IMG/VR virus record: IMGVR_UViG_3300022538_000472
Location: 45,608 to 109,607 of that record
Strand: one strand, 5' to 3'
DNA from: a virus
DNA: 64,000 nt
Shown: one piece after another, positions 6,540-62,995 of the stretch
Numbering within the stretch: position 1 is the stretch's first letter
Layout: every line of letters begins with the position of its first letter
Translations under genes and position numbers: made by a program
The notes under the pieces: model-generated
The model's input: the letters and a program-made list of their open reading frames with translations, nothing else
Database searches by the model: none
What the model was told of the DNA's origin: nothing

Positions 6540-6779
6540 CTACAAAGTCCTCTCAAACTCCCTCACATTCTCATCATAGAAACTTGGATCCTCCCCATTC
6601 TCCTGGTCAAGATACTTCTTGGCAAACGCAAGAAGAACCCGTCCAAGAATTCTTTCATCCATCGTAAAAACAGATGTCACTATCTCCCGACCCTGATGAA
6701 GGAAATATTGACGGAGTATTTGTAACCGGGATTCCAGATACTTCAGTTCAGACAATTCCAAACTTACTAATGCTTCCAC
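6540..6779 (-). CDS. Hypothetical protein, paralogue of 13536-13778
   Basis: 79 aa, helical and charged. The start MEALVSLELSELKYLESR is nearly the same as MEALVSLKLSELKWLESR in the protein at 13536-13778, and similarity continues through ILG-VLLAF-KKYLD. Conservation across 7 kb argues that both are real genes. Function unknown. Confidence 0.65.
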   Translation of the reverse strand: MEALVSLELSELKYLESRLQILRQYFLHQGREIVTSVFTMDERILGRVLLAFAKKYLDQENGEDPSFYDENVREFERTL

Positions 6780-6793
6780 TCTATCCTCCCAAG

Positions 6794-7084
6794 CTACAGC
6801 CAGTCCCCAAACTTTCTCACATTCTCTATATCATATCTTTCCAAGATGTCGGCCAAAATGCTCCCAATTTCTCTGCCCTGACTAGCCAAACGCCCAAAAA
6901 CTTCCAAGATTGCTCGTGCTTCTCGTGGAGCAAGAGGAGACTGTATTATAGGCTTTGTTACCCAAGCCATCCACTTATCAGCATCAGTCTCAACAGGAAG
7001 TGAATAAGGAAAACGCGCCAAAGCAACCCAAAAAACAGACCAATAGTCTAAAAGAACTCCACCAGGTGGTTCTTTCTCTTCCAT
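6794..7084 (-). CDS. Hypothetical protein
   Basis: 96 aa, helical and Trp-rich, in the spacing expected of an operon member. No domain recognised. A long hydrophobic stretch is absent, so it is probably soluble. Confidence 0.5.
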   Translation of the reverse strand: MEEKEPPGGVLLDYWSVFWVALARFPYSLPVETDADKWMAWVTKPIIQSPLAPREARAILEVFGRLASQGREIGSILADILERYDIENVRKFGDWL

Positions 7085-18279: not shown

Positions 18280-18785
18280 TCCCAGTCCTCAGCAGTAATT
18301 CCCGGCCTAGAATGGCGGATGCGACAAAGCCCAAGACCCGGTATGACAATATTGTCCTCTTTAACGTTGTCTTCTGGTGTATACCTAAAATGTGGGGGTG
18401 AGGCATCCTTGTCTGTACCAGTTTCAAACTCAGCGCCACAGAAGATGCACTTGCGCTTACCAGCCAATTCCTTGAACTTTCCGCTACCACAGTTGGGACA
18501 CAGCAATGCTTTCATCCCCATTCTCTTACTCTCACGCGACATTCCCCGGCAAGGCTGTTCATCTCGTGGCAACTGATTGCCGTTGCTATCAATAGCAGTG
18601 AAGGCTTCAGCATAGAAGCCCGGCCAGTCACGGCGCAACTTCTCTACTGTCTCCATGCTATCAAGCGTGCAACACTCGAAGCAGCCCATTGCCTCATTGT
18701 AAATCATCTCCCCCTTGACATTGAGATCATCTCTGAGGTACACCCTGTCACTTTCCTGTGCTGTAATCCATCCAACTAGTTTCAT
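18261..18785 (-). CDS. Zinc-ribbon hypothetical protein
   Basis: About 174 aa from MKLVGWITAQES. A four-Cys zinc ribbon, CPNCGSGKFKELAGKRKCIFC, lies near residues 95-115 (the two pairs are CPNC and CIFC). The preceding segment VEKLRRDWPGFYAEAF resembles a motif in 20340-20711 and 44061-44444 (WPEFYLSGP, WPRFYLEGP). Function unknown. Flanked by junction repeats. Confidence 0.6.
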   Translation of the reverse strand: MKLVGWITAQESDRVYLRDDLNVKGEMIYNEAMGCFECCTLDSMETVEKLRRDWPGFYAEAFTAIDSNGNQLPRDEQPCRGMSRESKRMGMKALLCPNCGSGKFKELAGKRKCIFCGAEFETGTDKDASPPHFRYTPEDNVKEDNIVIPGLGLCRIRHSRPGITAEDWEWSCFR

Positions 18786-21534: not shown

Positions 21535-21562
21535 TTGACATTGTTTCAAACCGTGCTATACT
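21535..21562 (+). promoter_or_regulatory. sigma70 promoter of the TIGR-Tas-like operon
   Basis: TTGACA (21535-21540), 16 bp, TATACT (21557-21562). Transcription would start near 21569, exactly where the structured leader begins. Confidence 0.75.
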
Positions 21563-21569
21563 AGAGCCG

Positions 21570-21691
21570 TTGACGGGTTGCGCTCGTTTTGTGTTTGCAG
21601 CCAAGAAAACACAGGCAAATATCCCGACATCTGTCGCCAGCGAGCCGACCCGTCAACAGGAAGGTTCTCAGCGATAGGCGTCGGGATATTT
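21570..21691 (+). promoter_or_regulatory. 5' leader able to form an H-type pseudoknot
   Basis: Helix A pairs 21570-21586 with 21641-21656 (TTGACGGGT with ACCCGTCAA, then GCTCG with CGAGC, one bulge). Hairpin B, TGTGTTT/AAACACA, lies at 21590-21613. Helix C pairs AAATATCCCGAC (21617-21628) perfectly with GTCGGGATATTT (21680-21691). A and C interlock, so both together make a pseudoknot ending 12 nt before the SD GGAGG. Likely a translation or stability control, or a precursor RNA of the operon. Confidence 0.65.
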
Positions 21692-21711: not shown

Positions 21712-22260
21712 ATGGCAAAGAAGGAACTGACCTTAGTAATACCCATTGGAGACTGGGAAGACGAATACCTGCGTGATGAAGTAGATGTTTCCTCAGAAGA
21801 TGCTATCATTACAATACGTCTTCAGACAGACATCGGCCCAGCGCAGTTAGGCCGTTCCCTTGTCGTAGCACGTGAACGCGATGAAACGAAGTCTAACATC
21901 ATCCCACAGAACAAGCCACTGCTGAACATAGCCGCCTCGTTGAGCGCAAGGAGGATATTGACTAAGCGGCAGGAGCCGGTAGAGATGCCAAACGGGAAGG
22001 TCTATGATGTTCCCTCATTCGTTGGCCCCATGAGCACATCTGATGATGAACCTAATGGGATAAAACCATTCGTCAGGTTGCACGATCCAGAAGCAATAGC
22101 ACTGGCGCTGGGGTATCTGGATCGTGCAGTGTCAGGGCATATCTGGAAGCGGCTGCTCGTGTTGGCGGCAAACGATGAGGACATCGTGACGGCGGCGCAG
22201 AAGGTGGTTGATAACGTTTGGGAGATGGTGGAGCGGTTGACGGAGCCAGAGGAGGAGTGA
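21712..22260 (+). CDS. Hypothetical protein upstream of the repeat array
   Basis: 182 aa from MAKKELTLVIPIGD, with GGAGGT 4 nt upstream; the longer frame from 21589 runs through the leader helices and is rejected. Acidic. ALALGYLDRAVSGHIWKRLLVLAAND is a likely helical pair near the C-terminus. No family recognised. Its TGA stop is the first three bases of the first array repeat, so gene and array are fused and must share a transcript. It may be an accessory gene of the system, or a simple passenger. Confidence 0.75.
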   Translation: MAKKELTLVIPIGDWEDEYLRDEVDVSSEDAIITIRLQTDIGPAQLGRSLVVARERDETKSNIIPQNKPLLNIAASLSARRILTKRQEPVEMPNGKVYDVPSFVGPMSTSDDEPNGIKPFVRLHDPEAIALALGYLDRAVSGHIWKRLLVLAANDEDIVTAAQKVVDNVWEMVERLTEPEEE

Positions 22261-22921
22261 AATCCAGTTTTAGTGTACGAGCCATGTTGCTCATGAAACC
22301 CACGACCGCTGTGCGAGCCAGACCTTCAATGAAACCCAGGCAAGGTATGCGAGCTAACTCAGTGATGAAACCCAGGGAGGTGGTGCGAGCCACGATCCTA
22401 GTGAAACCCACTTGAACGGTGCGAGCCACGCGCGTGATGAAATCCAGTAGCCCCGTGCGAGCCAACCAGGTGATGAAATCCAGCGTGGTGGTGCGAGCCA
22501 TCTAATTGGTGAAATCCAGAATCGCGGTGCGAGCCAGTGCGCATGTGAAACCCAGATGCAAGGTGCGAGCCAACCAGAGCATGAAATCCAGACGGCCAAT
22601 GCGAGCCAGTTGACCGGTGAAACCCACGGTGCTAGTGCAAACCAGTCGTGTAATGAAACCCAGATAGAACATGAGCCACTTGACGGGTGAAATCCAGCTG
22701 AGCGATGCGAGTCAATCTTCGGGTGAAACCCACGAATTCTGTACGAGCCAATTAGCATATGAAACCCAACACAACCATGCGAGCCAACGGCGCAGTAAAA
22801 CTCACATCACCCGTGCGAGCCATCTTGACTATGAAGCCCAGCGGCGCAGTGCAAGCCATACACGATGTGAAACCCACGATGCAAGTGCGAGCCATTGCTG
22901 TGGTGAAACCCAACCGATGAG
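22258..22921 (+). repeat. TIGR-type array: 18 units of 36 bp, two repeats and two 9-nt spacers each
   Basis: The unit is TGAAAYCCA, 9 variable nt, TGCGAGCCA, 9 variable nt. It repeats 18 times in perfect 36-bp register from 22258 to 22903, with one 2-bp deletion in the repeat at 22672-22678, then a final TGAAACCCA and a decayed end. All 37 spacers have exactly 9 nt, differ from each other, and every one ends in A or G, giving RTGA/RTGC at each repeat start, reminiscent of box C of C/D snoRNAs. This is the published architecture of tandem interspaced guide RNA arrays, whose processed guides are 36 nt with two 9-nt spacers. It is not CRISPR (spacers far too short). Next gene: Tas-like protein. 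Confidence 0.88.
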
Positions 22922-22946: not shown

Positions 22947-23912
22947 GTGAAAACCAAAGACAAGAGACCCGACCCAAAGCCACGGAAACACCCGCAACTG
23001 TGGCAGTCCTATCTATGGTGGGATGAACTGGTGCAGATGCGCAAGCGCCATACCCTGCGCATCAGCAGCATCGAGGCGGGCAAGTCCAATCTCGACGCTC
23101 AGTTTGAACGAGACATGATGGAGGGACATGCAAAAGTAACCCACATCAGCCGTGGTAAGACCACTGAGACAACCATTGGCGTCCCCCTTGACGCTGCCAT
23201 AGCCGGAACAAAGGAGATAATGATTGGCTACGGCAAGGACGTGGGGCCAGTATGGGACTGGCTCGCCAGCATCAAGGGCCTGGGCGCTGGCGGACTGGCG
23301 GCGCAACTGCTGGCGCAGTTCGACGACGTGAGCAAGTTTGACACCGTAAGCAAGTTCTGGCGGTTCGCTGGACAGGCAGTGTATTTTTACTGGCGAAACG
23401 GCCAGGGCACAATAGCAGCGCCCAGAGACGGGTATAAGTCACGCAAGGCCAAAAAGGGAGAACGGGCCATGAACGGAACCATCTGTGGGCCTGGGATGGG
23501 GAAACTTGTCGAACCTGGCATGGTCGTGAGAGAATACATTGTGCCAACCCCTGAGCCAGATTGGAAACTAGTGAAGCACAGAGATATAAAACTGAGCGGC
23601 TGGAACAGTCCATACAATGCCCGTCTCAAATCAATCTGCTATCTCATAGTCGAGCAGTTCATCAAACAGCAAACGCCAGTCTACGTTGACATCTACTACG
23701 CCGAAAAGGAGCGGCAACGGCATGACCATCCTGAGCCCATCAAGGAAAACGGCAAATGGAAGTTCAACGACGGCCACCTACACCATCGGGCAATGCGCAA
23801 GACGGCTAAAATCTTCTTGCAGCACCTGTGGGTGAAGTGGCGTGAGGCTGAAGGATTGCCAGTATCAAAGCCCTACGTTGAGGCAGTCCTGGGGCATACA
23901 AACATCATTTAG
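22947..23912 (+). CDS. tasA-like: Tas-like protein (IS110 C-terminal/Nop-like core, no nuclease domain)
   Basis: 321 aa from GTG with AAGGAGAG upstream. Residues 20-60 are a charged helical stretch; 105-145 (WLASIKGLGAGGLAAQLLAQ and SKFWRFAGQAV) match the helix-hairpin-helix Transposase_20 core of IS110 proteins; 221-305 form a helical domain with LHHRAMRKTAKIFLQHLWVKW. There is no DEDD/RuvC or HNH catalytic block, so it is not a complete IS110 transposase. Tas proteins of TIGR systems share this Nop/IS110-related core, and nuclease-free forms are called TasA. Position 26 bp after the array supports that call. It would bind the 36-nt guides and target DNA without cutting it, perhaps silencing or recruiting a partner. 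Assignment rests on motif and context. Confidence 0.75.
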   Translation: MKTKDKRPDPKPRKHPQLWQSYLWWDELVQMRKRHTLRISSIEAGKSNLDAQFERDMMEGHAKVTHISRGKTTETTIGVPLDAAIAGTKEIMIGYGKDVGPVWDWLASIKGLGAGGLAAQLLAQFDDVSKFDTVSKFWRFAGQAVYFYWRNGQGTIAAPRDGYKSRKAKKGERAMNGTICGPGMGKLVEPGMVVREYIVPTPEPDWKLVKHRDIKLSGWNSPYNARLKSICYLIVEQFIKQQTPVYVDIYYAEKERQRHDHPEPIKENGKWKFNDGHLHHRAMRKTAKIFLQHLWVKWREAEGLPVSKPYVEAVLGHTNII

Positions 23913-33046: not shown

Positions 33047-33206
33047 TGATGGACTCCTGTGTGTCCTGAGCAATTGCTCCTTGCCACGCCTCGTCAGAAA
33101 TTCCCCTCAGTTTCCGCAGCCGCTCGGAGTTGTCAAGCATCTTAGCAATGTCGGCGAGCAATTGCTTTCGCAACTTTCTTAATCTGCGCTTCTGTTTTTC
33201 ACTCAT
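33036..33206 (-). CDS. Small basic helical protein, 56 aa
   Basis: Reads MSEKQKRRLRKLRKQLLADI, then a charged helix and QDTQESISAT. It overlaps the portal stop by 4 nt and the minor head start by about 11 nt, good signs of a coupled gene. Function unknown. Confidence 0.55.
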   Translation of the reverse strand: MSEKQKRRLRKLRKQLLADIAKMLDNSERLRKLRGISDEAWQGAIAQDTQESISAT

Positions 33207-36200
33207 AATTCAATCGATGGATCAAAGGTGCTACCGCAGTTCCCGCAGACACAGAGACCCTTGTGGTCGCGATACTGTTTCGCGCCATGCTCGTTGCAAA
33301 CTGGGCAGGGGAAGGCGACTATCCCAAAGGTGTGTTGTGCTTGCTTTGATTCTACAGTGGCGGCGTCAATGTCCTCATCGGAGATGGGAACTTCATCCTT
33401 GGTAAATGGTTTCAATGGCTCCCCCCTTGGCTCAACCTTCTGCTTCTCTCCACGTCCCAAGAGTGCACCCATCGCACCCTGAACCATTGCCTTGACTCTC
33501 CCGCTCAGGCCATGCTCAATAGTCTCACTCTCACCACTGGATTCTGGCACTCTACTGATTGCCTTCTCCTCTGGCTCAGGCGCTTCCCCCCCAGGCCCCA
33601 CCTTACTCTGTGGCCTCGTCTCCGTCCACGCACCACCGCCGACCTTATCCACCAGATCCCTGGCATCTTCGTCGTAGCTGACAGCATCTGCATCTTTGTC
33701 AGTGGCAGATTTCCGCTTATCAGCAGCGCGCTCCAACTTCTTGCTGGCTTGCTCGCGTTTTGCTTCAGCTTGCTCTCGCTTCTTTTCAGCGCGTTCACGA
33801 GCCTTGGTAGCATTTGCTTCTGCCTTCTCAATGTCCACTGAATCAGCACCAGCGGCCACCAGCTCGGCTACCTCAGCATCGAATCCATCAGCCTCAGTGT
33901 CGAACTCATCTGCCTCTGTCTCATAGCCATCAGCCTTCGTCTCATAAGCATCCGCATCGGCGTCCAACTTCTCAGCATCGGCGCGATAGTCGGCAGCCTT
34001 ATCCCGTGCATCGCTGGCCTTTTCCCGCGTAACTTCCGCCTTGTCCAATGTACCGACAACCCTCTCCCGCGCCTGGCTCATCTCATCCAGCACTCTGCGA
34101 GTATCACCGCTATCAGCGGCGCTCATCACTGCCCTACCATCTGTGGTCAGTCGCGGGTTCCCTTCAGGATCCAACTCTACCAGGCCAGAAGCCGCCAGCC
34201 TCTGCGCTGACGCGGCGTCAAGACTCGCGCCATCCCTGAATGTCATCAACCCATTGAAGTCCTCTTCCCTAACTCCCCTTGAACCAAGCGCCTGCGCTGC
34301 CTCGCTGTGGTTGCTCTCTAATTCCAGCATCCGCTCAATGTCCCGTGTCGCTGCTTCCGTCTCGCGTTGTAGTTCACGCTCCTGCTTCTCGCGTTCGCGC
34401 GCGGCTTCCTTCTCCAGTCGCTTGCGTTCACGCTCGGCCTCTCGTTCGCGCTTCTTGGCAGCACTGACTGCCTGCTTGGCCTGACGGTCGCGTTCCTTTC
34501 CCTCAGCACGGGTCTTCTTCTCAGCATCCTTGTCAATGGCGGCTCGTGCTTTGTCCACGTCACCGCTATTGCCTGCCGAGAGCATAGAGCGACCGAGCGT
34601 GGTCATGATCGGCTGGCCATCCATTCCTAACTTGACAAACCCACGTCCAACGAGGTCACTCACATCACCTGCATCCCCACCAGACCTCAACACAGTCAAC
34701 GCATCCAGTGACCCTGGAGGCATTCCAAGTGCCTCGGCCACTGCCGCAGTGTTGGCCGCCTTCGCCGCCGCTGCTGCGCTAGGTTTACTCTCTGCTGCTT
34801 CTCCCGCGCGTGCACGACGCGCCAGCATCCCTGCTCTTAATTGCTCCTTGAGTTGCGCGACGTTGACGAACCTGCCACCAGCACCGCGTGCTAGTTCTCC
34901 GGTGATGACCTCGCCAACCGGCACACTGAAGTCAAAGCCCGACGCGAAGCCTTTCTCTCCCTCGGCTACTTCCTCTTCTCCCTCCTGTACCTCGGCAGTG
35001 ACTTCGGCCTGCATCTCCTGCTCAGTCTCACGTTGAGCTTCTGGCGCATAAATGGTCTTCAGCTTACCCAACGCCGCCAGTGCTTCACGTGCTTTCTGTC
35101 GTTCACCCGCAGTGCGTCCACTGCCAATGATGTTTTGCGCATTGAGCGCGGCGAGGTCAACTTCCTCCAGTATGATGAAGGGGTCATTGGCGTGCAACGC
35201 CAGCGGCTCCCTGACTCCCAGGTCAAGCAAGCGCAGGTAGATGTCATCTACGCTGGTAAACAGCGAGAGTACATCTGAGCCATCCGGCAGCCGCCCATCA
35301 TCCAGTTCCAGTTGATTGAACTGAGACTGAGATAAGTCACCGGACTCCAATGCTTGCTCACGCGCCACGCGTGAGTTGATGACGCCGTCTGCCAGTGACT
35401 TGCTGCGAGCCTCAGTTCGCACCTTGCTGATGTCAGCCTTCATGCGATCCTGCTCATCGTCCTGGAAGTCAAACACTAACTTAAGATGAGGCGGCAGGAA
35501 CTTGCCAGCCGAATGCCGGGAGCCTCGTGGATCACCGCCGAGCAGCATCGTGATGATGCTCAGCACCTTGCCAATGCCACCGCCCAAGCCCGCAATGTGT
35601 TGATACATCGCATCGGCCTTGGTTGCGCCCGAAGTTGCAGCCGGCCATATCCACCTAATCGGAACCCCAAACGCCAGCGCAATAGCGAACATCCCCAGAC
35701 GCGTGGAGGTCTCCTCATCAAACCCATCAGGTAAACCAGAGAGACTAAGCAGAGACAGGTCAGCGTCAGTTGCGATGTCACCAATGATGGGGAGTTTGGC
35801 GAGACGCGCAAGACCCTGGTTGTCCATGATCTCATCAGCTACCTCTAAGGAACCGGTCACTACGCTGGTGTGGATGCCTTTGCCAAGCAGTATCCCACGC
35901 ACAGGTCGGGAGCCCAGCTTTTCTTGCTTGAAAATCGAGATGTCCTGGAGGTTCTGGCTGACATTGATTGCTCTCGACAAAGCGCAGAACCCTACACCCC
36001 TCATCTCCACCCGCGACGACGGCATGTCAGACGCAAACGCTACACGAGTTCGGTGCAGTTTGGAGGGTTTGCCACTGGTGTCGCGGTAGAGTACCGGAAA
36101 CTCAATGTCGCCAGTCCTAACACAATGGAACGAGTCGAGGCACGAGAGACCTTGCGCTGGTCCAACTATAGGGCCATCCTGCTTGCCCTCGCCGATGACC

Positions 36201-37780
36201 TCCCAGAATCCACCGTTGTCGCTGCAATTATGAACAACAGTCTGAGCGGCAACAAATGTTTCTGTTCCCTCAACAGATAGATTGTAAGTCGTCTCTGCGG
36301 GTCTCTTGTCGTAGTAAGAACTCCCAGTCCTGAAATCACGCTGCTTGCTAACTGCAACCCGATCCCAGTACACTCTCGCTGACCCCAACTCCCAAAACCC
36401 AAGGTCATAATCCGGTGCATCCTCAGTGACTTTATAACGCATAGATGGAGGAACAAAAGAACCAATCAGTTCCATCAACTTACGGGAACCTTCAGCCCCA
36501 ATTGCTATCACAGGATAGGACTTTCCTCCATCCCTGGGACGGCGGTTGATTCGCATCTTGCTTGGAATCTCCTGAGATGTAAGCAGATCGGCCAACCATT
36601 GAACATCAGACTCTGAAAAACTGTTCGTGTAAAGCGTAACTTGAGGAATCAAATTGCCGGTTGTAGTTTCAACTTGATGTAGACTTCCATCATCAAGATA
36701 CCAGGCTGCTAGCATGAGAGATGAGAAATTTTCCTTCACCAGGTCACGAGGCACTATCTTCTTGCCATCAGGGTAAAATGCCTCATGCCAACTATTCAAG
36801 CCAAGTGAAGCGCGAGAGTTTATTCCAATAACTTCACTTTCGTTCAATCCAATCTTGGACACTCTATGATTCCGCCCTGTCCAGTGAAAACCTTGGAGCG
36901 CCAAGAGTTTCAGGTCTAACCATTTTTCCTGCTTCACACTATGCCCAAACCTAAGCATTGCCCGCTTGCGCACAAAGGACATGCTCGCATCACCTAATAA
37001 TGTACCCACCAAGAGTTGGGACTGCAACTCATTGGGAACAGGATCACCAGTTGCCACCATCATATCTGACTCAACTTCCCGTGCGGGTAGCCAACCGTTC
37101 TCAGTGAGAATAGGATGATCCTCTGTTACAAAGATTCCCCCTCTTTGGTCCCGACTATGAAAGGATGCTTCCTCAAGTGAAAGCCACCACCACCTGCGAT
37201 TGCCAAGAGGATTCTTGAACCATTCAGTGACTTGACGTTCTACGAGATAACCTTCTTTGGTCACCGAAAGTACAGGGCCAGTATCTTTATCCTTGACCAT
37301 CTTCGCAATGGCCTTAGTCTGCCCTCTTCGCTCTCCCCCCAAATGAATCCTGGTGGGACCTGCAAGACACCAGTAATCTGCAAGCCATTTGCAGATGGTA
37401 TCTGTCCACGCTTGACCAAACTCTGATTCCTCAGTTAGCCTGATAGTGAAGTCCTCAGCCTGACGCAAGTGGGCTTTGACAGTGGAGTCACGAGGGAGCA
37501 CTCGGAGGGGAACTGTGGCAACCCGTGCAGCGAGCAATGCCAGCGCGCCAGAGAGGTGATCAGACTTCTTCCAGAAGGCATCCAGGTCGGCATCGCGACG
37601 CGGCGACCACCAGGGAGCGATAAGTTGTCCGGCCTGGGTGAGATAGGTCAGTAACCCACCCGAACCCCAACTGCCCTCCTGGGTTGCGCGGGCTTGCACA
37701 CTGAGTTCACGTGCCGTCTTGACGCTTTTCTGGTCGGATGTGCTTTTGGGGGAGCGGGTTCGTTTGCGGGTTCGGGCCAT
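33203..37780 (-). CDS. Portal protein interrupted by an intein, with a long coiled-coil tail
   Basis: 1525 aa precursor. Residues 1-137 and 519 onward are the portal (GPTR-free body with DADLDAFWKKSDHLSGALAL and AFGVPIRWIWPAATSGATKADAMYQ, typical of phage portals that bind the head-tail ring). Residues 138-518 are an intein. After about residue 880 come 500 residues of Glu/Lys/Ala coiled coil with repeated YETKADGYETEADEF-like units, ending in a zinc ribbon (CPVCNEHG ... CVCGNC). Portals are normally 400-600 aa, so the tail is exceptional; it could act as an internal scaffold. Mature length about 1144 aa. Confidence 0.8.
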   Translation of the reverse strand: MARTRKRTRSPKSTSDQKSVKTARELSVQARATQEGSWGSGGLLTYLTQAGQLIAPWWSPRRDADLDAFWKKSDHLSGALALLAARVATVPLRVLPRDSTVKAHLRQAEDFTIRLTEESEFGQAWTDTICKWLADYWCLAGPTRIHLGGERRGQTKAIAKMVKDKDTGPVLSVTKEGYLVERQVTEWFKNPLGNRRWWWLSLEEASFHSRDQRGGIFVTEDHPILTENGWLPAREVESDMMVATGDPVPNELQSQLLVGTLLGDASMSFVRKRAMLRFGHSVKQEKWLDLKLLALQGFHWTGRNHRVSKIGLNESEVIGINSRASLGLNSWHEAFYPDGKKIVPRDLVKENFSSLMLAAWYLDDGSLHQVETTTGNLIPQVTLYTNSFSESDVQWLADLLTSQEIPSKMRINRRPRDGGKSYPVIAIGAEGSRKLMELIGSFVPPSMRYKVTEDAPDYDLGFWELGSARVYWDRVAVSKQRDFRTGSSYYDKRPAETTYNLSVEGTETFVAAQTVVHNCSDNGGFWEVIGEGKQDGPIVGPAQGLSCLDSFHCVRTGDIEFPVLYRDTSGKPSKLHRTRVAFASDMPSSRVEMRGVGFCALSRAINVSQNLQDISIFKQEKLGSRPVRGILLGKGIHTSVVTGSLEVADEIMDNQGLARLAKLPIIGDIATDADLSLLSLSGLPDGFDEETSTRLGMFAIALAFGVPIRWIWPAATSGATKADAMYQHIAGLGGGIGKVLSIITMLLGGDPRGSRHSAGKFLPPHLKLVFDFQDDEQDRMKADISKVRTEARSKSLADGVINSRVAREQALESGDLSQSQFNQLELDDGRLPDGSDVLSLFTSVDDIYLRLLDLGVREPLALHANDPFIILEEVDLAALNAQNIIGSGRTAGERQKAREALAALGKLKTIYAPEAQRETEQEMQAEVTAEVQEGEEEVAEGEKGFASGFDFSVPVGEVITGELARGAGGRFVNVAQLKEQLRAGMLARRARAGEAAESKPSAAAAAKAANTAAVAEALGMPPGSLDALTVLRSGGDAGDVSDLVGRGFVKLGMDGQPIMTTLGRSMLSAGNSGDVDKARAAIDKDAEKKTRAEGKERDRQAKQAVSAAKKREREAERERKRLEKEAAREREKQERELQRETEAATRDIERMLELESNHSEAAQALGSRGVREEDFNGLMTFRDGASLDAASAQRLAASGLVELDPEGNPRLTTDGRAVMSAADSGDTRRVLDEMSQARERVVGTLDKAEVTREKASDARDKAADYRADAEKLDADADAYETKADGYETEADEFDTEADGFDAEVAELVAAGADSVDIEKAEANATKARERAEKKREQAEAKREQASKKLERAADKRKSATDKDADAVSYDEDARDLVDKVGGGAWTETRPQSKVGPGGEAPEPEEKAISRVPESSGESETIEHGLSGRVKAMVQGAMGALLGRGEKQKVEPRGEPLKPFTKDEVPISDEDIDAATVESKQAQHTFGIVAFPCPVCNEHGAKQYRDHKGLCVCGNCGSTFDPSIEL
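36227..37369 (-). other. Intein with LAGLIDADG endonuclease domain
   Basis: Residues 138-518 of the portal precursor (381 aa). It starts at Cys138 (CLAGPTRIHLGG), has block B with the T-x-x-H motif (VTEDHPILTENGW, residues 218-230), LAGLIDADG helices LVGTLLGDA (257-265) and AAWYLDDG (358-365), block F/G GTETFVAAQTVVHN ending at His517-Asn518, and Cys519 as the first C-extein residue. All splicing nucleophiles are present, so it should be active. The endonuclease resembles the free-standing one at 702-1514. Confidence 0.92.
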
Positions 37781-42160: not shown

Positions 42161-42314
42161 CAGAGAAAAGGAGGAGCGCAAGAGATGCAGATGCGCCTCG
42201 CACCGCTCCTGGGTGCGGCTATTATGTTAAGTTAGACAGCCAAGTGAGATGAGGTCTCAGCAAGCCACTTGGTAACTGAGTAGCCCTCCCAGCTGCCTTG
42301 CACTTGGTACAGTA

Positions 42315-42401
42315 GCGGGGCCAGGAATCGAACCTGGGTCTCCGGATTAGACCTGGTGTCTCTGGATTAGTGCCCGGCTTGACGCCACTCCACTACCCCG
42401 C
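42315..42401 (-). tRNA. tRNA-like sequence, class II length, anticodon unresolved
   Basis: 87 nt. GCGGGG at the 5' end pairs with CCCCGC at the 3' end; a normal T-arm, CCAGG-TTCGATT-CCTGG, sits directly before the 3' strand, and TA follows the 5' strand as at positions 8-9. The middle contains a 20-nt near-tandem duplication (CTAATCCAGAGACACCAGGT and CTAATCCGGAGACCCAGGTT) that spoils a clear anticodon arm. Either a decayed tRNA or another tRNA-like RNA. Confidence 0.45.
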
Positions 42402-42419
42402 ATTATGTCGATGATTACG

Positions 42420-47579: not shown

Positions 47580-47948
47580 CTAGTCCTCCAAAAGTGCCAA
47601 ATATCTCTGTGCTATGTCCTCACGCTCGGCCTCGTCCTGCGGATACCGCGACAGAATTGCCACCGGCTCAGCAGCCCGCAGCCAGACAGTGCGAAATTGG
47701 CCGTCAGCGAGAGATGCGAGGACTTCTGTTTTGAGTCCACCATACTGCTGGACATTTTGCATCGTGCGACAGTCCTCGGCGGCGAGTTCGGCGATCCTGA
47801 TGGACCACGGCCAGGGGAGTAACAGTGCCGCTGACTTGCGTGCTGACGTGAGAACGGCAAGACAGCCGCGCGCCATTTCCAAGATGACCGCCGTGTCTAC
47901 GCCGCCTATGGCGGAGAGATTGATGCTTTTCAATTTGCTCGTTTCCAT
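47580..47948 (-). CDS. First gene of the 43-48 kb operon, hypothetical
   Basis: About 122 aa from METSKLKSINLSAIGG. The predicted transcript starts near 47962, which would leave the upstream ATG (47960) almost leaderless; GGGGGA before 47948 favours the second ATG. Helical, soluble. No family recognised. Confidence 0.6.
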   Translation of the reverse strand: METSKLKSINLSAIGGVDTAVILEMARGCLAVLTSARKSAALLLPWPWSIRIAELAAEDCRTMQNVQQYGGLKTEVLASLADGQFRTVWLRAAEPVAILSRYPQDEAEREDIAQRYLALLED

Positions 47949-47968
47949 CTGTTCCCCCATTTGTACCG

Positions 47969-47997
47969 ATTATAGCACACTTTAGCAGATGTGTCAA
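47969..47997 (-). promoter_or_regulatory. Exact-consensus sigma70 promoter, leftward
   Basis: TTGACA (47997-47992), 17 bp, TATAAT (47974-47969) on the minus strand. Divides the leftward operon from the rightward one. Confidence 0.88.
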
Positions 47998-48145
47998 CGA
48001 GAGGCAATTCTTGAAAATCAAACAAGTCAATAGATTCTCACCACTTTTCATCCCCAAGAACCTTGCAAAAGTGCGCAAAAACCCTGCAAAATCACGTCGG
48101 AAACCTTGCAGAAACAACCATCCGTGACCAATTTGCCCAAAAGAC

Positions 48146-48174
48146 TTGACTTCCGGTAAGTTATATGATATTAT
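48146..48174 (+). promoter_or_regulatory. sigma70 promoter, rightward
   Basis: TTGACT (48146-48151), 17 bp, TATTAT (48169-48174). The 200 nt that follow have no ORF and carry GGAA motifs at short intervals (GAAGGAAACG, AAAGGAAC, CCGGAAGG, CAGGAAGG, TCGGAAGG). I see no clear fold there. Confidence 0.75.
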
Positions 48175-48377
48175 TATAGCGTAGTAAACGAAGGAAACGA
48201 ACCAAAGGAACATTAACAACCGAAACCCCGGAAGGCGAACAGGAAGGCACAATCGGAAGGCCAAATAAAGACCGGCCACCGAGGCGGTAAGTCGCAGAGA
48301 CTGAATAGTAACTGGTAAACTGAAAGGGGAGACGGCGAAATAGCCCAGGCGCTGGAGGAGGCGGGTGGGCAGGGAAC

Positions 48378-48406
48378 TTGCTTTATTTCCAATCATGCAG
48401 TATAAT
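48378..48406 (+). promoter_or_regulatory. sigma70 promoter of the pseudoknot RNA
   Basis: TTGCTT (48378-48383), 17 bp, TATAAT (48401-48406). The predicted start, near 48413, is the first base of helix P1. Confidence 0.75.
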
Positions 48407-48412
48407 AAGACC

Positions 48413-48530
48413 GTCTAGCCAAACGCTCAATAGGGCGTTTTCAATTGCATACTTGGAGGTAAAGCTCCCCTCTTGTGTAGGCTTAGCGCCCTACGTTTGG
48501 CTAGACACCAACGTACACAAGCGGGGAGTT
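48413..48530 (+). ncRNA. Pseudoknotted non-coding RNA
   Basis: P1: GTCTAGCCAAACG (48413-48425) with CGTTTGGCTAGAC (48494-48506), 13 bp perfect. P2 continues it: TAGGGCG (48431-48437) with CGCCCTA (48487-48493). P3: 48465-48479 with 48514-48528, CTCCCC and CTTGTGTA paired to GGGGAG and TACACAAG, 14 of 15. P3's 5' strand is in the P1/P2 loop and its 3' strand outside, so the RNA is pseudoknotted. GGAG/CTCC inside the loop can form a rival hairpin. No ORF to 48692. Function unknown. Confidence 0.75.
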
Positions 48531-48691
48531 TTGCGTAAAAAGCGAGGTTTTCAATGGCACTAAAACAATGACAAGCCCGCATAGGAACCGAACGAAACTC
48601 GATTGAGCAGCAGGGAAACGAAATAGGAACTGGCAATGGTTGGGTCGGTTAAATCTGAATGAGCAAGAGAGAAACCCTAAGGAGGAGTGAA

Positions 48692-48817
48692 ATGTTAAAG
48701 TGTAAACTTTGTGGTGAATGGGCAGTTCGCACCCTCAAACGGGTGTGGTGTAAGGTGACCAAACGGTACGTTACCGTTGTCGTGTACAGGTGCGTCAAGT
48801 GTGGTGAGGAGGCGTGA
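48692..48817 (+). CDS. 41-aa zinc-ribbon protein
   Basis: MLKCKLCGEWAVRTLKRVWC ... YRCVKCGEEA; two Cys pairs (CKLC, CVKC) make a compact zinc ribbon. AAGGAGGAG 5 nt upstream. First gene of the rightward early operon. Confidence 0.65.
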   Translation: MLKCKLCGEWAVRTLKRVWCKVTKRYVTVVVYRCVKCGEEA

Positions 48818-48818
48818 A

Positions 48819-49076
48819 ATGACATGTCCTTGCTGTGGCGGAAAGATGGTACAAGAAACAAGGAGTAATAAAATGTCAAAAGGTACAGTAGTCATCAAGG
48901 AAACAATGGAAGCAGGATTGACGAAGTTCAAGGCTACCTGGCCTAGCGGCAAGGTTTTTGAAAAGTACGTTGATATGGGCGATGACGTGAATGAGCGAAG
49001 GCGTCAAGAGGACTTCGCCGAAAGCAGGGGTTACACCGTCGAGTGGGACGAGGAAGGCTTGGTCTTTGGAGACTAA
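48819..49076 (+). CDS. Small protein with N-terminal CxxC
   Basis: 85 aa from MTCPCCGGKMVQET, with GGAGG upstream; an internal ATG (MSKGTVVIKE) also has an AAGGAG and could give a shorter form. Acidic C-terminus. Start overlaps the previous stop region by adjacency (TGAAATG). Function unknown. Confidence 0.6.
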   Translation: MTCPCCGGKMVQETRSNKMSKGTVVIKETMEAGLTKFKATWPSGKVFEKYVDMGDDVNERRRQEDFAESRGYTVEWDEEGLVFGD

Positions 49077-49080
49077 TATC

Positions 49081-49745
49081 TCCCAGGGGGCGCGACCTGG
49101 ACAAAAACGCGTCGGCAGCAAGATGATTAGCAAGGGGGCTGGTAAAATCCAGCACGCAGGCAAATGTGAGCGCCTGCGGGGAACTTGCGCCGGAGCCGTG
49201 AGGCAAACGGGGAACGCCACCGCGAGTACTCGTGGCGGGCTGAGGAGGCCGGGAAGGGGGAACCGGCATTGCTAATCATCGGAACGAAAACGCGCAGGCA
49301 GCGGCTCTTTGACAGATAGATGACAGATTGGTGAGGTCCAACCGGTAGACGTTCTGGCCAAACTCATCCCGCTTTAGGCCAAGCCACGGGAGGCCTGGGA
49401 TTGGCGCATACCGCCTAGACAGGGCCTGGTTGCGGCAGATTACGAAGTCGCAATTTGAGCACCGCAGGAATGGACGCGCTGAAACCCAAGCCGGAATGAA
49501 CGTGAAGCCTGGGAGTAACGCCCCAGCGTATGGGTAGGAAGTGGTAGCGGAAGGCAACGCAGTCATCTATCTGTCAAAGAGTCGCGCAGGCAGCGGGCTT
49601 CGGCCCCTGCTGGCCGCTGGCCCAACTGGCTCACGCTTATCTTGGCGTCCATCGGTTGTCCGGGACGCACGGACGTGCCGGAGTAATGCTCGGCGAATAA
49701 CACCGACCGGGTCGCCGCCGACTGGTGGCCGGTGGATGGCAAGAT
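49081..49745 (+). ncRNA. Large structured non-coding RNA or MITE-like insertion
   Basis: 665 nt without a gene. Domain 1 is closed by GATGATTAGCAA (49122-49133) and TTGCTAATCATC (49269-49280). Domain 2 is closed by a perfect 20-bp pair, CTCTTTGACAGATAGATGAC (49305-49324) with 49562-49581. Copies of ACGCG-(T)C-GGCAGC-type sequence separate the domains (49107-49119, 49289-49302, 49583-49596); the last two share 14 nt exactly. Inner hairpins include GCTGG/CCAGC, GCAGGC/GCCTGC, CGCCAC/GTGGCG and CTGGG/CCCAG. Size and modular folding recall the large phage RNAs GOLLD and ROOL, though no sequence motif confirms either. Domain 2 with its flanking 14-nt repeat also fits a small inverted-repeat element. 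Confidence 0.7.
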
Positions 49746-49782
49746 GCGCATGAGCATCTACTTACTCAAAAAGGAGAAAAAG

Positions 49783-49968
49783 ATGTTATTCGTTCAATGT
49801 GATATAGTACATCCTGAAAGCGGCGAGGTCATTGCCGAGCCAGGCAAAGCGCTCAATGTATCATCTCCGCGAGCGCAGCATGTGCTGGCTGTGTGTGAGG
49901 AATACAGTCAATTCTATTCTATTTGTCAGGACGATGATAGCGACATGATTATCATAAAGCCAGTTTGA
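49783..49968 (+). CDS. Small acidic hypothetical protein
   Basis: 61 aa from MLFVQCDIVHPESG; AAAAAGGAG upstream. Upstream in-frame ATGs lie in the structured RNA. Function unknown. Confidence 0.5.
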   Translation: MLFVQCDIVHPESGEVIAEPGKALNVSSPRAQHVLAVCEEYSQFYSICQDDDSDMIIIKPV

Positions 49969-50016
49969 TCAGCACGGCCCATGCGACCGCGCCAGCGCAG
50001 AATAAGGAGAAGAGTA

Positions 50017-50313
50017 ATGAGATACAAATTTGAAGGGAAACATAAGAGCGCCATCCACGTTATAGATAGCGTCGCAGAGAACGTGGAGCGCGTAAACAAG
50101 GGCGTGGAAGCTTTCGGGATAAAATTCCCGGCCTGCCACTGCAACGATATGGCAGATCTAATCATTATAGTACCAGATGACTGGGCTTACCAATACCTCG
50201 TCGTGCCATCGTGGTTCAAATGCACTTCGCATCCGCACTTACGTGTGGAAAGGATGCGGGGCAAGGACCACCGTATCTACAAAAAAGTATTTATCAATCA
50301 GGTAGAGAAATAG
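50017..50313 (+). CDS. Hypothetical protein
   Basis: 98 aa from MRYKFEGKHKSAIHV; AAGGAG 7 nt upstream. Preceded by the hairpin motif TGCGACCGCG-x-GCGCAGAA (49982-50002), which recurs before 50668. Function unknown. Confidence 0.5.
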   Translation: MRYKFEGKHKSAIHVIDSVAENVERVNKGVEAFGIKFPACHCNDMADLIIIVPDDWAYQYLVVPSWFKCTSHPHLRVERMRGKDHRIYKKVFINQVEK

Positions 50314-50375
50314 CCCGGTATCCTTCCCGGCAATCAGGAGTGGCCGACGGTAAACTAAGTCAAAAGGAGCAAGCA

Positions 50376-50609
50376 ATGTCTTGGATTAATAAGTTCGTAG
50401 GAGAGAAGGAATTAGATACTGACCACGTCTTTGAGGTTGAGGGCGCAAGCGGCTTCAACCTCATCCCGCTAGCGGTCGTGGTTGAATACATCACGATCGC
50501 CACCAAGCAAGAGCAGGCAGCAATCAAGAAAATGCTAATCAAGATTGACTTCGTCAACGGTGACGTGATGCACTTTTTCAATCATCTGGCGAAGGCAATA
50601 GCAATCTAG
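50376..50609 (+). CDS. Hypothetical protein
   Basis: 77 aa from MSWINKFVGEKELD; AAAAGGAG upstream. Helix (YITIATKQEQAAIKKML) between beta segments. Function unknown. Confidence 0.5.
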   Translation: MSWINKFVGEKELDTDHVFEVEGASGFNLIPLAVVVEYITIATKQEQAAIKKMLIKIDFVNGDVMHFFNHLAKAIAI

Positions 50610-50631
50610 CATCTCAGCCACTGCGCCCCCG

Positions 50632-50652
50632 TGCGACCGCGTTGGCGCAGAA
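50632..50652 (+). repeat. Intergenic hairpin motif, copy 2
   Basis: TGCGACCGCGTTGGCGCAGA here and TGCGACCGCGCCAGCGCAGA at 49982: the ends TGCG/CGCA pair and the loop varies. Both sit just before an SD. Other intergenic gaps of this operon have their own repeated GC-rich hairpins. Confidence 0.6.
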
Positions 50653-50667
50653 ACAGAGGAGGAGAAG

Positions 50668-50868
50668 ATGAACAAGAAGCCAACCAAGTGGCAGCGAGAC
50701 GCGGAGAATGTCGAAACCTCCAGAGTGCAATTCTGGCGGGACGGCGTCATGATAACTGCGCAGATGACACAGGCACGGGCGCAGGCGATGATCAGGAATA
50801 AAACAGCATACGTCATCTCAGCGCAGGCTGTCGGTGTTCTTAGCACTGACGGGACGCGGAGGGGGTAA
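50668..50868 (+). CDS. Hypothetical protein
   Basis: 66 aa: MNKKPTKWQRDAENVETSRV ... TQARAQAMIRNKTAYVISA. GGAGGAG upstream. Looks like a short helix-strand domain. Function unknown. Confidence 0.5.
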   Translation: MNKKPTKWQRDAENVETSRVQFWRDGVMITAQMTQARAQAMIRNKTAYVISAQAVGVLSTDGTRRG

Positions 50869-50877
50869 AGGAGAAGA

Positions 50878-51315
50878 ATGGTATACAAAGACACAACCGA
50901 AAGTGCAAAGGCTGTTCGCAGGGTGCTCAAAGCAGAGTATCCCAATACCAAGTTCTCAGTCCGCGTCAAGCGGTTCAGCATGGGCTCATCTGTCAATATC
51001 ATCTGGATAGACGGCCCTACAGAGACGGAAGTAGCCGACAAAACAGCACACTTGAAGGGCGGCGAATACCTGAACGAGTATATTGGAACTCGCCGCACTA
51101 TCACCCGCGCCGTAATGGTAGCAGCGGCGGAAGCCTTCACCAGGCATTACGGCGTGGGCGTGCTAGAGGTAAGAGGCGGCGAATTTGATCCATATCTCAC
51201 CAGTACAGTGAGGGTGGGCAATGTGGCGATTTGCGACCGGGTACACCAGGCGGTGTGGGCCACCAGCGTTTACAACACGACGCCAGAAGAGGCATTCAGG
51301 AAAGTATTTCCATAG
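50878..51315 (+). CDS. LPD29-like domain protein
   Basis: 145 aa. KFSVRVKRFSMGSSVNIIWIDGP and TESAKAVRRVLKAEYP match the layout of Large polyvalent protein-associated domain 29, found in phage and plasmid polyvalent proteins. Role probably in early infection; not established. Confidence 0.6.
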   Translation: MVYKDTTESAKAVRRVLKAEYPNTKFSVRVKRFSMGSSVNIIWIDGPTETEVADKTAHLKGGEYLNEYIGTRRTITRAVMVAAAEAFTRHYGVGVLEVRGGEFDPYLTSTVRVGNVAICDRVHQAVWATSVYNTTPEEAFRKVFP

Positions 51316-62107: not shown

Positions 62108-62995
62108 ATGGCCAAGACCAAAATTGAGTGGACGCAATTTTCCTGGAATCCCGTGACCGGCTGTACGCCCTGTTCGCTCGGCTGTACTCACTGCTATGCC
62201 AAGCGCATGGCTCGCAGGCTGGCAGGCAGGCATGGCTACCCTGAAGCGCCTCATCACTTCGATGTGACATTGCACCCTGACAGGCTCGATATACCATTGA
62301 GGCGCAAGAAGCCAACCATTTATTTTGTGTGCTCGATGGGCGACTTATTCCACGAAGATGTGCTTGAGCCATTCATATTCCGTGTACTCAAGGTCACACG
62401 AGATACACCACAGCATACCTACCAAATTCTAACTAAACGACCAGGGAGAATGGCCCCTGTTATGTGTGAGTATTACGCCAAGCTGCGGGCCGCTTATGGA
62501 AGCAAGGCAGAAGAACCTCAACGAAATCTCTGGCTCGGCGTCAGCGTTGAGAATCAGGCCACAGCCGACGAGCGGCGCGAGTATCTGGAGCGGTGTCCAG
62601 CCGCCGTCAAGTTCGTTTCCTACGAGCCTGCGCTGGGGCCGGTGGACTGGACGGGCTGGGAGTTCGTATCGCAAATTATATCTGGGGGAGAATCGGGGCC
62701 AGGAGCCAGGCCGTCGCATCCCGACTGGCACAGGGGGACGCGGGACTTTTGCCAAGAGAATGGCATTGCCTACTTTTTCAAAGCCTGGGGCGCTTGGATG
62801 CCGTACAAGAACGAGGAGCATAAGAGTACACTATCTACTTGGCAAGGTCGCACCAACTGGGGCTCTAGGATACGGTTCATGCATGTATCTGGTTCATGTG
62901 ATCCGTCCTACAAGGAAACTGTGACGATGATTCGCGTCGGCAAGAAGCGCGCCGGCCACCTGCTGGACGGTCGCGCCTGGAGAGAATCGCCATGA
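62108..62995 (+). CDS. DUF5131 (Gp37/Gp68) radical-SAM-like protein
   Basis: 295 aa from MAKTKIEWTQFSWNPVTGC; AAAAGGAG upstream. TGCTPCSLGCTHCYAKRMA contains the C-x3-C-x2-C-like Fe-S motif of this radical-SAM-related family, followed by MGDLFHEDV, WLGVSVENQ and SYEPALGPVD, its known landmarks. Common in phages; biochemical role not settled. Confidence 0.88.
   Translation: MAKTKIEWTQFSWNPVTGCTPCSLGCTHCYAKRMARRLAGRHGYPEAPHHFDVTLHPDRLDIPLRRKKPTIYFVCSMGDLFHEDVLEPFIFRVLKVTRDTPQHTYQILTKRPGRMAPVMCEYYAKLRAAYGSKAEEPQRNLWLGVSVENQATADERREYLERCPAAVKFVSYEPALGPVDWTGWEFVSQIISGGESGPGARPSHPDWHRGTRDFCQENGIAYFFKAWGAWMPYKNEEHKSTLSTWQGRTNWGSRIRFMHVSGSCDPSYKETVTMIRVGKKRAGHLLDGRAWRESP

Follow-up and report, generated by a model that had tools for sequence, protein, structure and literature searches.

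A likely interlocked mRNA 5' leader at the head of a phage early operon, with four further elements of the same build in the phage record

What is the role of a tightly folded element that seems to begin at the very first transcribed base of a phage operon? The initial annotation of this locus described a pseudoknotted RNA with its own promoter in a divergent control region, and proposed that it could act as a switch or as a host-directed RNA. We analyzed the surrounding stretch of 64,000 nucleotides (the window; record positions 45608-109607 of IMGVR_UViG_3300022538_000472) together with the rest of this 109,607-base record. Our results suggest that the element is likely a cis-acting mRNA 5' leader rather than a free RNA. 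The whole reading, namely a 5' mRNA leader that is interlocked at the transcript start, shields the 5' end and restrains translation, is one to which we give a somewhat better than even chance. Coordinates below are those of the window unless they are assigned to the record.

The interlocked fold at this locus (copy 1) spans positions 48413-48534 on the plus strand and is made of three helices with the crossing arm order P1-P3-P1'-P3'. The 20-bp P1/P2 helix of the initial annotation was recovered as a 13-bp, 100% complementary P1 (48413-48425/48494-48506), whose 5' arm begins at the predicted +1, and a 7-bp P2 (48431-48437/48487-48493), which reaches 9 bp if a U.G and a U-A pair are added (arms 48431-48439/48485-48493). 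P3, previously described as a 15-nt helix, indeed interlocks with 14 of these 15 pairs as described, but its true extent had been missed: it covers 21 nt (48459-48479/48514-48534), 20 of which pair when G.U is allowed, and its 5' arm lies within the P1/P2 loop. The 7-nt L3 has to bridge P1/P2, which would strain classical coaxial stacking; we therefore claim crossing pairing and no geometry.

Together, P1 and P3 contain 27 Watson-Crick pairs, compared with a maximum of 24 among 100 dinucleotide shuffles of the window (best of each). Copy 1 scores 96 with a structural descriptor, against at most 74.5 for the best of 60 whole-record shuffles in which a promoter was required, and best scores of 68-81.5 in shuffles without the promoter requirement (n=25). 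It is nearly certain that copy 1 is a structured RNA.

A rival hairpin (GGAG/CTCC, 48455-48458/48465-48468) overlaps the P3 5' arm, as the initial annotation had noted in proposing two states. Such a local hairpin could keep the P3 5' arm occupied until displaced, so that the element would act as a metastable switch that opens a timed translation window. Copy 5 (see below) also contains a hairpin of this type (GGAGACU/AGUCUCC), and metastable folds are reported in a toxin-encoding mRNA, according to the accessible part of PMC6733600. However, the copy 1 hairpin has 4 bp, the nested fold in the loop totals -9.1 kcal/mol versus about -31 kcal/mol for P3, and copies 2 and 3 do not retain the hairpin as such. 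The hairpin exists but is weak; the two-state proposal is weakly supported, and a metastable switch is unlikely.

Upstream of the fold, on the plus strand, a TTGCTT box (48378-48383), a 17-nt spacer and a TATAAT box (48401-48406) form a promoter (48378-48406) that scores 9/12. The conventional spacing from the -10 box makes 48413, where P1 begins, the predicted +1 position, in agreement with the earlier claim that transcription starts exactly there; the -35 box is poor, matching 3/6 positions, and because our promoter tool demands 4/6 this promoter was not listed by it. A promoter-like site with a better score is found upstream (TTGACT-17-TATTAT, 48146-48174, plus strand), so that copy 1 may in addition be part of a longer leader. 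The placement at the head of an early operon is reasonable by gene orientation, but has to be read with this better-scoring upstream site in mind. The leftward operon has a consensus promoter on the minus strand (47969-47997, 12/12). Also on the minus strand, and close to strong promoters, ARAGORN calls a tRNA-Pyl with a CUA anticodon at 42312-42402.

A Shine-Dalgarno-like GGGGAG (48523-48528) sits in the P3 3' arm of copy 1. The sequence downstream of it, TTTTGCGTAA, has no start codon at the usual distance, unlike in copies 3 and 5. Reading on from copy 1, one first meets open frames that are very short and, beyond them, small early genes. The run of very short frames occupies 48540-48700, and could be a series of leader peptides. 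Further downstream, a long non-coding stretch (49080-49600, fold z -3.6) contains two domains; a perfect helix of 12 bp (49122-49133/49269-49280) closes one of them, and a 24-nt helix of 96% complementarity (49301-49324/49562-49585) the other. This stretch resembles a large ornate RNA, and has no match in Rfam. Direct repeats of CGCGCAGGCAGCGG occur at 49291 and 49583, with a near copy at 49108, and the motif is absent from the rest of the record.

Could copy 1 be a stand-alone small RNA, transcribed from the 48378 promoter and acting in trans on the host or the phage? It has a promoter of its own and a compact 120-nt fold, the nested part of which alone reaches z -5.7. However, the sole terminator-like site on the plus strand in the scanned stretch (47900-51000) is at 49886, with none before it, the U run is already consumed by P3, and the four other copies run directly into genes. 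Because no terminator was found ahead of 49886, a free host-directed RNA as initially suggested is unlikely, and the position of the other copies weakens that suggestion further.

A comparative search by structure, proposed in the initial annotation, was run over the whole 109.6-kb record and revealed four further elements of the same build, one of which lies in the window and had been overlooked. This is copy 2 (21569-21691, plus strand), with P1 at 21569-21580/21646-21657, P2 at 21582-21588/21639-21645 and P3 at 21617-21637/21671-21691, behind a promoter at 21535-21562 on the same strand (TTGACA, 16 nt, TATACT; 11/12). Copy 3 (record 6664-6807) was first picked up as an antisense match and then identified on the opposite strand. 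Copy 5 is located at about record 18400-18531, and the weaker copy 4 (score 67.5) at about record 21966 on the minus strand, with a promoter of 11/12. When the record was scanned without a promoter requirement, the top four scores belonged to copy 3 (105, the highest), copy 1 (96), copy 2 (89.5) and copy 5 (86), followed by a score of 74. These four copies each lie behind a promoter-like site of 9-11/12. For copies 1, 2 and 3 the -10 spacing predicts a base-paired 5' end with fewer than two unpaired nucleotides; P1 of copy 5 is imperfect and begins about 3 nt past the predicted start, or about 20 nt past it in an alternative pairing.

We also performed the reverse test: for each of the 162 sites that score at least 9/12 as promoters, we recorded the best fold with a start 3-9 nt past the -10 box. 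Ranks 1-5 go to the five leaders, each of which outscores all 200 of its local shuffles. These ranks favor this design somewhat, since copies 1-3 were already known when the descriptor score was tuned; copies 4 and 5 were found by the tuned score. For rank 6 (score 62), 2 of 200 local shuffles did as well. The seventh site (score 59, record 39002, minus strand, 0/200 shuffles) has almost no P2 and was not counted. Scores of at least 67.5 appeared five times in 60 whole-record shuffles (three best of each), and copy 4 therefore rests on its promoter and its gene.

At the sequence level the leaders of copies 1 and 3 are homologues (alignment z 12.9, reached by 0 of 500 shuffles), a relationship that BLASTN fails to detect. 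In a MAFFT alignment of the two, 34 pairs covering P1, P2 and the outer part of P3 could be compared; the inner half of P3 was excluded because the alignment shifts it. Six of these pairs carry compensated double changes (one in P1, two in P2 and three in P3) and none carries an uncompensated change. All 65 lettered cells are paired; opposite three of the P1 pairs of copy 1, the copy 3 sequence has a gap. In controls with the partner slid by 1-3 columns, 34-48% of positions were paired and no double changes were seen. Letter shuffles performed as well in 5 of 500 cases, a limit that is set by having two sequences and six variable pairs. In copy 3 itself all 22 positions of P3 pair, four of them as G.U. 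The initial annotation had named non-compensated changes in P1-P3 of homologues as evidence against its model, and copy 3 shows none in these 34 pairs. Six compensated changes with no broken pair make a recent neutral duplication unlikely, and copies 1 and 3 are in effect natural compensated mutants.

In leader sequence, no clear similarity links copies 2, 4 or 5 to copies 1 and 3 (z at most 2.3), so that common descent is established for copies 1 and 3 only. The other three support the architecture, either through convergence or through descent too old to detect. Copies 2 and 3 have similar promoter stretches (z 6.1).

These comparisons also bear on an explanation at the DNA level, according to which interlocked inverted repeats near the promoter bind a regulator or a recombinase. 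Perfect inverted repeats do adjoin the promoter, and the arrangement scores on both strands. On the other side, the copies differ in sequence and keep the pairing alone, G.U pairs are retained between copies 1 and 3, and the element is always positioned downstream of the predicted start. A DNA element is quite improbable.

Three of the five copies lead directly into homing-endonuclease genes, and these belong to three unrelated families, GIY-YIG, LAGLIDADG and HNH. Behind copy 3, a GIY-YIG gene (PF01541) starts with an ATG at record 6808, directly after P3, and its GGAGGG lies inside P3. Behind copy 5, a LAGLIDADG gene (LAGLIDADG_1, PF00961) starts with a GTG at record 18532, nearly directly after P3, and again the Shine-Dalgarno sequence (GGGGAG) is inside P3. 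Copies 3 and 5 are the only ones in which P3 contains a Shine-Dalgarno sequence ahead of a gene. The gene behind copy 4 encodes an HNH protein (PF01844, 22.8 bits, above cut-off), with a Shine-Dalgarno sequence that is apparently outside P3. Copy 2 precedes a gene for a 182-aa protein (21712-22260, plus strand), whose GGGAGG is outside P3 and which had no match in Pfam, PHROG, PADLOC or phage tblastn searches. Past this gene, 22260-22500 contains repeats of the type GTGCGAGCCA...GATGAAACCCA, and 22947-23912 encodes a transposase-like protein (phrog_4285).

Leaders are found at a subset of such genes. The record contains eight homing-type endonuclease-domain genes (an endonuclease-VII-like protein was excluded from this count), three with a leader and five without: GIY-YIG at record 6826 and 102018; HNH at record 1145, 15991, 21202 and 43087; and LAGLIDADG at record 18589 and inside a 1525-aa frame of the window. 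This frame (33203-37780) has an internal LAGLIDADG_2 endonuclease domain, and may represent an intein or an inserted endonuclease.

A pseudoknot RNA upstream of a gene also recalls type III antitoxins, which would pair the element with a ribonuclease toxin. However, the element is not tandemly repeated in 47900-51000, a PADLOC scan of seven neighboring proteins gave no toxin-antitoxin match, and three copies precede homing-endonuclease-like genes, leaving this explanation extremely improbable.

How might such a leader work? Transcription would begin on the first P1 pair or no more than about 3 nt away from it, and P1/P2 would close at once after synthesis. The emerging P3 3' arm would then pair back into the P1/P2 loop, giving an interlocked fold that is locked at the 5' end. 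No free 5' nucleotides would be left for a pyrophosphohydrolase or a 5' exonuclease, and the message would therefore be protected. Where P3 holds the Shine-Dalgarno sequence, as in copies 3 and 5, translation would be kept low or delayed until opening or cleavage of P3. Copy 1 would be such a leader on an early operon, with a buried GGGGAG and no start codon behind it; it may have lost a gene or have been put there by recombination. This function, 5' shielding combined with a translation brake, is our best reading of the fold.

Energy estimates, which assume a +9 kcal/mol penalty for knotted forms, place the knotted form below the nested one in copy 1 (-56.3 versus -52.6 kcal/mol) and copy 3 (-64.3 versus -63.4), whereas the nested form is somewhat better in copy 2 (-51.5 knotted versus -55.4 nested) and copy 4 (-35.9 versus -40.5). 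In copy 5 a long nested hairpin competes (-50.1 knotted versus -66.5 nested); judged by eye, an unpaired bulge in this nested fold could still accept P1.

RNA structures ahead of phage homing-endonuclease genes have precedents. According to the accessible part of PMC2988022, T4-type hairpins (I-TevI, I-TevII, I-TevIII, segB and Aeh1 mobE) hide the Shine-Dalgarno sequence, and they form on long early/middle transcripts only, as the gene's own late promoter omits them. The present leaders resemble these hairpins as there described in burying the Shine-Dalgarno sequence (copies 3 and 5). They differ from that description in that the gene's own promoter is predicted to start at the interlocked fold and that three nuclease families share the design; as the predicted starts coincide with the P1 5' end or lie no more than about 3 nt from it, the genes' own transcripts would carry the whole structure. 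In phage T4, the 5' leader of the gene 32 mRNA likewise contains a pseudoknot, which lies some 67 nt ahead of the start codon and nucleates gp32 binding in autoregulation (PMC3014915, accessible part). Unlike that pseudoknot as described there, the present one has two helices of about 20 bp each, occurs on several transcripts and has no known protein; none of the genes behind the copies gave an SSB match.

The 5' stabilizing leaders of mRNAs in B. subtilis and E. coli, among them ermC, aprE and ompA, are stem-loops or ribosome stalls that are not known to be interlocked or tied to mobile genes. With this group the present leaders share a predicted structure at the extreme 5' end, but here the fold is interlocked. 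The accessible text of PMC3997798 reports that B. subtilis RppH needs unpaired 5' bases and that a strong Shine-Dalgarno sequence without a start codon can stabilize an mRNA. The present leaders would withhold such bases from RppH, and copy 1 has a Shine-Dalgarno-like sequence of this kind, although it is paired.

The phage appears to reuse the knotted leader design as a control piece at mRNA starts, and the copy 1 leader may perhaps derive from endonuclease leaders. Homing endonucleases move between phages yet must spare the genome that carries them. A more tentative proposal, which we consider doubtful on balance, is that promoter and interlocked leader form a portable cassette and a new RNA family, acquired separately by three unrelated nuclease folds in one lineage, and that copy 1 has been domesticated in front of the early operon. 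If so, each selfish gene would receive the same 5'-end protection and translation brake. Were one leader common to three unrelated families of nuclease, selection and exchange would seem to act on the control module itself and not on the nuclease alone.

Searches beyond the record gave no relative of the leader in the phage and Chloroflexota DNA covered. Rfam returned no match at the gathering score in the window and the three loci that hold the rest of the record (L090-L092), and permissive Rfam scans around copies 1, 2 and 3 gave nothing credible; a search of an open-access library found no description of this leader. Scans with the neighboring 126-aa protein and the exact P1 arms found one contig, which is 100% identical over the 7 kb compared and is not independent evidence. 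BLASTN at E 10 gave no match for copy 3 against phages or copy 1 against plasmids. The copy 3 and copy 5 endonucleases have no relative in the viral contigs, while the copy 4 endonuclease has two distant ones and the neighbor behind copy 5 has one.

A covariance model built from the P1/P2 pairs of copies 1 and 3 (R1) found its two members as the only clear forward matches in the record, without copies 2 and 4; on copy 5 it gave 11.8 bits (E 0.62), mostly at the P3 end. Its reverse-strand matches at the copy 3 (35.9 bits) and copy 1 (10.1 bits) loci are a palindrome effect. It found nothing in 86 other loci, in sets of 30 and 5 records, or in 400 genomes of the phylum; since R1 leans on sequence, structural relatives may still exist.

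The structural descriptor was run on 135 other loci (1.68 Mb). With the promoter ignored, the 14 best scored 86-116.5; among high scorers, L077, L030, L046 and L099 are repeat-rich or GC-rich, and L039 scored 104.5 at a GC content of 0.49. Three loci combined a promoter score of at least 9 with a descriptor score of at least 60, the best (71) being a dispersed repeat of another phage; the repeat locus L077 had 109.5 with a promoter score of 8. Another phage record (L030, L107; 121,820 bases) carries many dispersed repeats of about 145 bp, the inverted parts of which mimic interlocked folds. No promoter-linked element was found upstream of 22 endonuclease-homologue loci, two of which are the same gene; the best of these (L159, 79.5) was without a promoter and GC-rich. 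A GIY-YIG gene in the searched phylum (L148) has a 16-bp inverted repeat upstream, with a long loop and no clear P3.

The host is perhaps a member of the Chloroflexota, a guess from sequence relatives of the terminase: two are 54% identical (Chloroflexota/Chloroflexi), one 30% (Anaerolinea) and one 29% (Planctomycetota). At the loci of terminase relatives (80 of 97 kept), 34 proteins were tested and a single match was obtained, to the protein at 62108-62995. Which RNases the host has is likewise a guess; of 101 genomes in the suggested host phylum, 95 have a match above the cut-off of the RNase J model.
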